Shown here in pieces: positions 10,670 to 49,159 of a DNA stretch of 49,159 nt; position 1 is the stretch's first letter, and the number at the start of each line of letters is the position of its first letter. A model generated the notes under the pieces. It made no database searches and was not told where the DNA came from. It saw nothing but the letters and a program-made list of their open reading frames with translations. This stretch comes from an uncultured Bacteroidales bacterium (GTDB lineage: Bacteria; Bacteroidota; Bacteroidia; Bacteroidales; Bacteroidaceae): NCBI GenBank assembly GCA_945836755.1, contig CAMAMB010000013.1, positions 1 through 49,159 on the forward strand, read 5' to 3'. The translations under genes were made by a program, and so were the position numbers.

Positions 10670-11198
10670 ACCCCGTGCCTTTAAGGTGGCGTGGAGCGCA
10701 TCCCTTCTCTGCCCATGGCCTGACAAGGGGGGGCACGTGACCGGGCTAGACCATCGAGAGGGGAAGATGAGGGCGTGCGTCTCACTGTCCACCTGGTATC
10801 GCGGCCCCGGAGTGCTTTATATCATTGGGAGCAGCTCTCTCGAGTTGACTCCAAGCATCGCAGGAAAAACTCCAAGCATTGCAGAAAAAACTGGAATGCT
10901 TGGAGTTTTTTCTAGATGTACATGTAGGAAATCTTAGATGTACATGTAGGAAAATTTAGATGTACATGTAGGGTTGTGAGCATATATCGTCCCATCTATC
11001 CGGCCTGCTGTGAGGGGTGTTTCCCCCCTTCCGCTTCATCTCTTCAGCGTGTGTGTGGCGTGCGCCCATGTAGCGCCTCATGTTGTGCCTCCCAATAAAA
11101 CGGGCCTCCCGGCTTCGCGCCACAACCGGCAGGTACTGCAACCTGTGGAGCCGGCGTTGGCCGGAGGGACTGTGCGGGTGGTGATGGGCGAGGTGGCT
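10670..11198. other. Intergenic region between convergent genes
   Basis: The region contains no gene I can support. Its main content is the 21/22-bp array at 10851-10979. An imperfect inverted repeat near 11115-11155 (CCGGCAGGT...ACCTGTGGAGCCGG) could act as a weak terminator for the DUF3078 gene. Confidence 0.5.
10851..10979. repeat. Array of six units, 21/22-bp period
   Basis: Units start at 10851, 10872, 10893, 10914, 10936 and 10958. The first three are 21 bp, with cores CCAAGCAT, CCAAGCAT and GGAATGCTTGG; the third has the opposite orientation. The last three are 22 bp with AGATGTACATGTAGG, core ATGTACAT. All but the last end in an A- or T-rich run. Because the core changes while the period and A-rich tail persist, this looks like a modular array rather than simple slippage. 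Confidence 0.85.
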
Positions 11199-16688: not shown

Positions 16689-17729
16689 CTATTCGTTCAT
16701 CACGCCGCAATGTGGGCATCTTCCCCTCGCCGGCAGCGAGTGATGGCAGGCGCCGCAGTAGAGGTGGGACGGCCCGTGGCGCATGTACTGGCTAATGGCG
16801 AAATACCAGTAGCCGCAGAGTAGCACGTAGCCTATATAAAAAGGTGTGGTGAGGGTAAAGATGAGGTAGAGCACCATGCAGACGCCGCCCAGCGTTACCA
16901 AGTAGCTGAGGTTGTCTCCCAGGTCGGGCAGGCGGCGCAGCTCGTCGACTACGGCCACTGCCACGATGAGCATGAGCCAGATGGAGGCAATGAAGAGGGC
17001 CAGGATGAGCGGTATGTCGGAGCTGAGGGGATTGAGGGTCGGGTGGTAGTAAAATTCCACCCATGTCTCGGGCACAAAGCGCTGGATGCTACCATAAATC
17101 ACGGCAGCGCCACTCACACAGAGGCAGAGCAGGGTGGGGTAGAAGCTCGGTATGTCGCGGAAGTGGACGATGCGGATACGCCCGTGGCGCACTATCTGTA
17201 CGAGAATGAAGAAGATGCCGATGCCTGCAAACGAGAGAAAGAAGAGGGCGCGGCTGTCCGAGAAGTGGAAGATGAACCGGCTGATAGGGTCGTCAGGCGT
17301 CACTCTCTGCAGCAGGTCGCTCTCTCGTACCCATCCCTGGGTGAACTGGTCGCGTGCTATCTTCACCCAGATGCTGTCGGTCGGGGCGTTGTCGGTGAGT
17401 GTAGCTGTGGGCGCCCCAGGGGCATAGGTGATGCTTACCACCACCGCATGGTCGCCTCTACGGAAGCGCGAGGTGTCGCTGAGCGCCAGGTCGTATTCGG
17501 GCAGCAGCCCGGTGAACGGCGCCGAGGTCGATGCGTTCAGCGAGTCTGTCAGCACGAAGTTGTAACCCACCCAGTAGTGGTGGCGTGCGCGGAAGTGTAT
17601 GCTGTCCACAGCCTGCTTCTCGCCCATCACCCAGGCGTCGCCGCCCCCTTGCTGGGAGTAGTAGCAGGAGCTCAGCAGGAGCAGGGTGGGGATGAGCAGG
17701 AGCAGATGGCGGAGGGTGGTCTGCGGCAT
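16689..17729 (-). CDS. Membrane lipoprotein with C-terminal zinc ribbon
   Basis: A 346-residue protein of unknown function. The start at 17729 gives a lipoprotein signal (LLLIPTLLLLSSC, Cys22). The 76 codons open upstream have no protein character. Residues 25-180 are extracytoplasmic and contain an SH3-like stretch (DSIWVKIARDQFTQGWVRESDLL). About four membrane helices follow (for example ALFFLSFAGIGIFFILVQIV). The C-terminus is a zinc ribbon with CGACHH and CPHCG. A lipid anchor, four helices and a cytoplasmic-type ribbon in one chain is an odd combination. Confidence 0.75.
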   Translation of the reverse strand: MPQTTLRHLLLLIPTLLLLSSCYYSQQGGGDAWVMGEKQAVDSIHFRARHHYWVGYNFVLTDSLNASTSAPFTGLLPEYDLALSDTSRFRRGDHAVVVSITYAPGAPTATLTDNAPTDSIWVKIARDQFTQGWVRESDLLQRVTPDDPISRFIFHFSDSRALFFLSFAGIGIFFILVQIVRHGRIRIVHFRDIPSFYPTLLCLCVSGAAVIYGSIQRFVPETWVEFYYHPTLNPLSSDIPLILALFIASIWLMLIVAVAVVDELRRLPDLGDNLSYLVTLGGVCMVLYLIFTLTTPFYIGYVLLCGYWYFAISQYMRHGPSHLYCGACHHSLPARGRCPHCGVMNE

Positions 17730-17964
17730 AGGCGTGTGTCGAGATGGTTGACGGGAGGTCGTGGAGCGGAGTAGCATGCCGGCATGCAGTACGCCGGGCT
17801 TCCCACTGCAAAAATAGTAGATATATCTTATCGCCCCGCACCATGTGGATATTTTTCCATCGTACGACCCTCCTTCGCACACCCCGTTGCCTGCCGCCCT
17901 CTTCTGCGTCAGCCGGGCGTTAGACCGTATTCCCTGCTGCCGGTTTGTACGTGGCATGAATCTT

Positions 17965-18206
17965 AGATGTACATGTAGGAAATCTTAGATGTACATGCAG
18001 AAAATCTTAGATGTACATGTAGGAAAAACTAGATGTACATGCAGAAAATCTTAGATGTACATGTAGAAAAAACTAGATGTACATGTAGAAAAAACTAGAT
18101 GTACATGTAGGAAATCTTAGATGTACATGTAGGAAGAACTGGATGTACATCTCGTTAAAACGGGAGGCATTTCACAAAAACGCTGGATGTTTCCCGTGAG
18201 GCTGCA
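17965..18206. repeat. Eleven-unit array with exact 22-bp period
   Basis: Nine units begin at 17965, 17987, 18009, 18031, 18053, 18075, 18097, 18119 and 18141, each exactly 22 bp apart. They share AGATGTACATGTAGG or AGATGTACATGCAG followed by an A-rich tail ending TCTT or ACT. Two more degenerate units keep the register at 18163 (GGAGGCATTTCAC) and 18185 (GGATGTTTCCCGTGAGG). The core ATGTACAT is palindromic. No unit-to-unit spacer is present. Confidence 0.9.
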
Positions 18207-18274: not shown

Positions 18275-18365
18275 TGGCGGAAAGTGAGGGATTCAAACCC
18301 CCGGTACGGACAAGCCGTACAGCGGATTTCGAGTCCGCCCCGTTCGATCACTCCGGCAACTTTCC
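18275..18365 (-). tRNA. tRNA-Ser (anticodon CGA)
   Basis: All arms can be folded. The acceptor is GGAAAGT / ACTTTCC with discriminator G and an encoded CCA (18275-18277). The D stem is CCG/CGG. The anticodon arm is GCGGA-CTCGAAA-TCCGC with anticodon CGA at 18329-18331. The long variable arm GTACGG/CCGTAC is typical of class II tRNAs, and the T arm is GGGGG-TTTGAAT-CCCTC. It reads UCG codons. Confidence 0.97.
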
Positions 18366-32381: not shown

Positions 32382-32469
32382 CCGGTGGTTTTCGGTCGGA
32401 AACAGATGTGGTTTCGGCCGAAAACAGATGTGGTTCCGGGCAGAAACAGATGTGGCTTCGGCCGAAACC
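32382..32469. repeat. Four-unit array with 22-bp period, TTTCGGCCGAAA core
   Basis: Units start at 32382, 32404, 32426 and 32448, exactly 22 bp apart. Three begin AGATGTGG; the strongest continues TTTCGGCCGAAAAC, containing the perfect palindrome TTTCGGCCGAAA (32412-32423). The first unit is degenerate (CCGGTGGTTTTCGG). The period, the AGATGT start and the GAAAAC-like end match the arrays at 10914 and 17965, but the middle differs. It falls in the inferred 5' leader of the HU-like gene. Confidence 0.85.
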
Positions 32470-32487
32470 ACTTCGCTCCGCGCCTTG

Positions 32488-48965: not shown

Positions 48966-49084
48966 AGCAAAAGCAGAGCTTACTTGCCCGCGGTGTCCAA
49001 AATGACCTTCTGTCTCGTCGTAGCTATGCGAAGAGCGGGGTGGGGCAGTCGGTGGTATGTCCGTCAGCCTATGCCGCAGTTCCT

Positions 49085-49159
49085 GGATGTACATGTAGGA
49101 AAACCTGGATGTACATGTAGGAAAAACTAGATGTACATGTAGGAAAAACTAGATGTACA
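49085..49159. repeat. 22-bp-period array, four units, cut by the window edge
   Basis: Units begin at 49085, 49107, 49129 and 49151, each 22 bp apart, as GGATGTACATGTAGG or AGATGTACATGTAGG plus an A-rich tail ending CCT or ACT. The fourth is truncated by the end of the window, so the array probably continues. It lies about 120 bp upstream of the DUF1599 promoter. Confidence 0.85.

Follow-up and report, generated by a model that had tools for sequence, protein, structure and literature searches.

Rows of a 22-bp palindromic repeat dispersed between the genes of an uncultured Bacteroidales bacterium

The draft genome of an uncultured Bacteroidales bacterium (2,252,793 bases in 94 contigs, 84.8% complete) carries a dispersed system of arrays, in which a palindrome of 8 bp recurs in rows at 22-bp steps at no fewer than 83 places outside predicted genes. 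The arrays are a firm observation; as to their function, we infer that they may be phased sites for a putative dimeric DNA-binding protein, the best reading available and one to which we give about even chances. Among dispersed palindromic repeats of intergenic DNA, they come closest to BrickBuilt and REP elements, though each of these has a tested defining feature that they lack. In a search of open-licence papers, none of the titles listed names such arrays in this genus.

The window, by which we mean the whole analysed stretch of 49,159 nucleotides (C13:1-49159), contains the array in which the repeat was noticed, together with the following neighbours and related features.

17963..18154, + strand: main array, nine units at an exact 22-bp step
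18155..18206, + strand: decayed end of the main array, read by eye
18275-18365, - strand: neighbouring tRNA-Ser(CGA), 69 bp from 18206, not thought to be part of the array system
10912..10971, + strand: sister array of three units in a convergent gap
49083..49159, + strand: sister array running into the window end
32385..32470, + strand: 22-bp array with another palindrome, GGTTTCGGCCGAAAAC + AGATGT, in a divergent gap (tandem repeat 32385-32467)
10848..10911, + strand: second family, two 21-bp units (CTCCAAGCATYGCAG + A tract)

The nine RGATGTACAT anchors of the main array lie at 17965, 17987, 18009, 18031, 18053, 18075, 18097, 18119 and 18141, bearing out the strict 22-bp interval given in an earlier, sequence-only reading of this DNA. 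On both strands of the window this pattern has 16 matches where 0.14 are expected (none of 100 shuffles reached 16, and the maximum was 3), and TRF assigns period 22 to 17959-18132. Each unit consists of TTAG, CTAG or CTGG, then ATGTACAT, then GTAG or GCAG, followed by a 6-nt linker; the final unit has CTCG instead. The tails, described in the same reading as alternating, do not alternate; they run in the order TC-TT, TC-TT, AA-CT, TC-TT, AA-CT, AA-CT, TC-TT, AA-CT. Its claim that two decayed units keep the register is weak, with 6 of 10 anchor letters matched at each of 18163 and 18185 (counted by eye); these units are nearly complementary to one another (CGGGAGGCAT and ATGTTTCCCG) and make up a near inverted pair. 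The main array is free of predicted genes, as had been said; of an ORF of 422 aa at 16689-17957 beside it, the gene is called from 17729. The two sister arrays and the 22-bp array at 32385-32467 are additions to that reading. The end of tRNA-Ser is where it had been placed, 70 bp away by that count, and since 4 of the 83 arrays in the genome lie within 500 bp of a tRNA gene, this neighbourhood looks incidental.

Across 289 kb (the window and fetched stretches), there are at least 83 arrays with 446 units, 2 to 12 in each, a lower bound since a few more occur on contigs C5, C6 and C9 outside these stretches. Genome-wide, GATGTACATGTAGG occurs 105 times, adjacent unit pairs 117 times and rows of three ATGNNCAT cores 341 times; reversed-pattern controls in this genome gave 96 + 70 and 243 + 243, but these controls lack independence, since the array units themselves also match the reversed patterns. 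The sequence-only reading had named the lack of any period preference throughout the genome as a refutation, and a preference was found: 360 of the 363 steps in the 83 arrays are 22 bp, under an array definition that limits joining steps to 1-3 units +/- 1 bp. When cores with up to one mismatch are compared without this limit, 359 of the 376 gaps shorter than 100 bp measure 22, and exact cores separated by less than 150 bp (n=337) stand at 22 in 331 cases, at 44 in four, and at 66 and 67 in one each. The core is nearly confined to the arrays, which hold 420 of its 425 occurrences (composition alone predicts ∼2.3 in 289 kb). No array among the 83 extends more than 10 bp into a predicted gene, the gene calls being those of a simple codon-usage script rather than a standard gene finder. 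Array orientation has no relation to gene direction, GC skew or net gene strand, and no replication polarity was seen. Two pairs of arrays have similar flanks (L140 and L160, 93% alike; L159 and L162, 91%), as duplicated segments or assembly duplicates.

Oriented by its constant side, the unit comprises a variable arm (CTAG, CTGG, TTAG, CGGC or CGGG), ATGTACAT, GYAG and a 6-nt linker that is mostly A/T-rich. Among 278 inner units the core is perfect in 267 and GYAG is present in 265 (the GYAG counts omit one array with no clear orientation), and the linkers include GAAAAA (54), TTTTTC (48), AAAAAA (38), TTTTTT (19) and TTTTAA (16). The A-rich linker strand is opposite the GYAG strand in 28 of 82 arrays (e.g. 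L103, L104, L122 and L124), showing that palindrome and linker orient independently; the same flip is seen in the congener Bacteroidaceae bacterium RGIG5034 (G067; L176 versus L177).

Pairs of units with this core are absent from 36 congeners and from 24 genomes of other families of the order, and none was found in a collection of 84,980 species, a scan that may leave out the genome itself or very near ones. A looser 22-bp scaffold, GTAG-GAAAAA-CTAC with at most 3 mismatches, matches in 4 of 58 genus genomes: 55 times in this one, 38 in 'Candidatus Equimonas faecalis' (G009), 19 in G067 and once in G072. Equimonas is classed under Bacteroidaceae by NCBI. Reversed-pattern controls gave zero for the unit-pair search, the search for relatives' cores and the looser-scaffold search. 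The cores of the relatives are different, being TATA-centred in G009 and ATAGGCAT in G067. Among their core-to-core gaps shorter than 60 bp, 74 of 132 measure 22 for the loose hexamers of G009 (the next most frequent gap being 44, n=6), as do all 13 for G067.

The period extends further through the genus. Sampling 40 kb from each of 20 congeners gave 51 intergenic tandem repeats with periods of 15-40, of which 33 have a period of 21 or 22, and such repeats are present in 16 of the 20; in 18 genomes of other families (660 kb) the figure is 3 of 16 (p 0.0016), and per 100 kb of intergenic DNA the densities are 17.8 and 2.1, respectively. The congeners sampled were 20 of 57, with stretches placed by position on contigs bearing Y1 or OmpH matches; this sample was not blind, as arrays or repeats had already been seen elsewhere in some of the genomes, and the contig of G065 was chosen through a match lying 7 kb beyond the stretch sampled. 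The control sample was drawn from 20 of the 24 other-family genomes, two stretches under 3 kb being dropped. A palindrome test was applied to 63 of the 72 intergenic arrays with period 21 or 22 (the rest have another consensus length or fewer than two copies). Individually, 16 of 63 are palindromic at p 0.05 (∼3 expected), from 8 of 16 genomes or samples, so that across species the palindrome is a tendency and no rule; the longest A or T run averages 4.06 in the 63 arrays and 2.96 in shuffles. Units that join a palindrome to an A/T tract include CTACGTCTGAGGTAG-ATTTTT (G064), TGGCAGGCCTTGCCA-CTTTTT (G020) and CTAGATGCGCATCCAA-GAAAAA (G032), the palindromic array unit of G032 being CTAG-ATGCGCAT-CCAA-GAAAAA, and G019 carries a row of ATGGCCAT. 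Long intergenic arrays were also encountered in G028 (L289 9300-9746, 23 bp x 19.4) and G032 (L278 1764-1985, 21 bp x 10.6). Beyond the family but within the order, the genome G054 carries a pair of 23-bp arrays of a palindrome-like unit with a T tract (L345 8231-8298 and 9647-9736); 23 bp is also the BrickBuilt period.

Array sites do not look visibly conserved with G009, although the numbers are small: in 400 kb of G009, an array stands at the matching gene end for 1 of 14 ends that have an array here and for 3 of 16 that have none. This comparison excluded matches with less than 60% coverage or 35% identity and gaps cut by a stretch end, left out array-free gaps under 100 bp in our genome, and took G009 gaps under 60 bp as lacking an array. 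A conserved site on the 3' side of OmpH, promising by eye for the two genomes, was dropped in view of this count. By eye, arrays also lie upstream of the same gene in our L157 and in L202 of G067, a genome outside the counted test.

Several explanations compete with protein binding. A neutral minisatellite, its 22 bp kept by slippage and unequal exchange alone, would account for tandem rows of varying length and for the 40 of 83 arrays that end no more than 30 bp from the end of their contig, at the point where assembly broke off (arrays at so many draft breaks also mean that short-read assemblies probably lose parts of them). We nevertheless hold it to be very unlikely, as differences between neighbouring units avoid the core: over 340 pairs (n=1218), 28 fall in the core where proportionality predicts 443, with 119 in GYAG, 402 in the left arm and 669 in the linker. 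Since arrays were located through cores with at most one mismatch, this conservation is somewhat overstated, a bias bounded by the scarcity of 44- and 66-bp gaps (5 of 337), and since the units of one array are related, the counts are not independent. Moreover, 346 neighbour pairs have accumulated 1259 substitutions and 3 steps other than 22, and one core sits at 83 places with no common flanks. Rows of intrinsic terminators or mRNA-end hairpins, formed by the palindrome and a T tract, are similarly improbable, even though, of 99 array sides with a gene within 600 bp, 61 face its 3' end (p 0.027). Arrays flanked by genes on both sides (n=36) occupy 17 tandem, 13 convergent and 6 divergent gaps, against 25, 1 and 12 among the 38 gaps of 150 bp or more that lack an array in these stretches; the convergent enrichment (13/36 vs 1/38, p 0.0002) may in part be a gap-length effect, as array-free convergent gaps may simply be short. 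The first 132 nt of the main array have a strong RNA fold on either strand (z -9.07 and -7.36), which is to be expected of any row of palindromes, while a pair of units by itself gives a weak fold on the minus strand (z -1.90). The second family at 10848-10911 is terminator-shaped: the second unit pairs with an inverted copy terminating in TTTTTT to give a two-way form (RNA fold of 10833-10912: -34.1 kcal/mol, z -5.05). The arrays proper show no preference for a U tract placed downstream in the sense of the upstream gene, the T-tract side being turned toward a gene 3' end in 32 of 51 cases and the other side in 29 of 48, and linkers such as TTCGAA have no T run. Strong flank hairpins near gene 3' ends are similar on both sides (19/28 vs 16/26). 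The arms also do not covary as a hairpin stem would, and the sense is even opposite: across the linker, GCAG stands opposite an arm A rather than the pairing G 21 times versus 1 (odds ratio 0.07, p 0.0006), and within the unit 22 versus 1, counts from related units for which p is only a guide. Termination as the main function was dropped, since neither orientation nor flank hairpins have a side preference.

The chief rival is a REP-like or BrickBuilt-like mobile repeat, in which the palindrome with its GYAG foot would be the substrate of a trans-acting transposase and rows would arise by repeated processing; we consider this possible, if somewhat unlikely. Like REP/BIME elements, which are mostly intergenic (PMC3733652, PMC6006769; further literature in PMC8957277), the repeats are short, high-copy palindromes lying outside genes and differing between species, with a GTAG/GYAG motif on one side (265 of 278 inner units), and the variation of that motif matches the GYAG of published GTAG-REP tags. 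The apparent lack of site conservation with G009 would also suit a mobile repeat. Published canonical feet lie 5' to the hairpin, while GYAG here lies 3' to the core on its own strand; the rows run head to tail at 22 bp and not as inverted pairs, and the arms lack the compensating changes of a stem. Y1_Tnp (PF01797), the domain of RAYT-type enzymes, gave no match at E 0.001 in this genome (at its 84.8% completeness). Y1_Tnp is above cut-off in 26 of 58 genus genomes, and 14 of 30 loci fetched, from 13 congeners, were compared with the units of arrays sampled in their own genomes (most flanks being 1.5 kb, and three of the 14 loci partial or weak matches): 13 hold no such units, and at one (L100) units lie ∼1.3 kb from the gene. 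The repeats were not assigned to the GTAG REPs, their tag being on the other side and their arms unpaired, and no RAYT having been found in the genome as assembled or close to the sampled arrays. A Bacteroidetes subclass (2.6) of this transposase family is described as having atypical flanking structures with no GT[AG]G tag, and the poor fit to classical REPs leaves room for a relative of this kind. BrickBuilt, a stem-loop-forming minisatellite MITE of Porphyromonas gingivalis, is described as limited to P. gingivalis and P. gulae (PMC4596501), with 19 elements in strain ATCC 33277, 11 with both leader and tail and 4 with both IS5-like terminal repeats. Our arrays share with it the Bacteroidales host and spacer-less tandem units of about two helical turns (23 nt in BrickBuilt), always intergenic and at many places (PMC4596501). 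They differ in number (at least 83), in period (22 bp) and in having no common leader, tail or terminal inverted repeat, with 17 similar pairs among 125 flanks.

We prefer to read the arrays as phased protein sites. A phased array has a conserved core at constant spacing, and such a core is found here; this reading is supported by the conservation of core and step, the placement outside predicted genes, the free orientation of the arrays, arms that do not compensate like a hairpin, the near confinement of the core to arrays and the period seen in congeners, although recent spread by a copying enzyme that needs the core could leave a conserved core too. A dimeric DNA-binding protein would recognise each ATGTACAT core as double-stranded DNA, and with sites two turns apart, neighbouring dimers could fill the row side by side, perhaps helped by the A/T linker. 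A row might act locally, insulating or condensing its gap, or serve as one of many chromosome anchors; the observations fit local insulation downstream of genes as well as anchoring of the chromosome. Core and protein would change together between species, and arrays would be born and lost quickly. With 10.5 bp to the helical turn, each 22-bp step adds a drift of ∼34 degrees, so that neighbouring cores would share one side of the DNA and a whole row would do so only at ∼11 bp per turn in the cell. The sequence-only reading, which put all cores on one side, is thus retained for neighbours and narrowed for the row; its cooperative protein-binding array has gained a genome-wide 22-bp preference, a conserved palindromic core and the 21/22-bp bias of congeners, with the binding itself still putative.

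Plasmid iterons are likewise 22-bp phased direct repeats that serve as protein sites, and 22-bp direct repeats with GGAGAAAAAACTGT in Lactococcus fujiensis (L213) and Proteus sp. FME41 (L216) are presumably of this type. The arrays resemble iterons in this layout and in the proposed role, but being dispersed over at least 83 places in one genome they are unlikely to be iterons, which would lie next to a replication gene at an origin. A wider version of the binding reading, drawn by analogy with centromere repeats and in our view distinctly unlikely, is a genus-wide satellite system whose core would be replaced as a set between species along with a fast-evolving binding protein, and which would organise or insulate the chromosome.

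The recurrence of a step of about two turns and of an intergenic place across the sampled congeners, with a sequence that differs by species, amounts to a natural experiment. A protein that reads the core would be expected to change its recognition residues along with it, for example between ATGTACAT here and ATGCGCAT in G032; if instead an enzyme spreads the rows, it would represent a route to a high-copy bacterial repeat for which we found no description.

Other repeats were observed along the way. In the array at 32385-32470, the palindrome TTTCGGCCGAAA lies between divergent genes and may perhaps provide operator sites. Two arrays of G067 (L177 and L178) terminate in an inverted unit similar to that of 10848-10911, and the window itself begins with a tandem duplication of 84 bp (positions 1-170, 97% matches).
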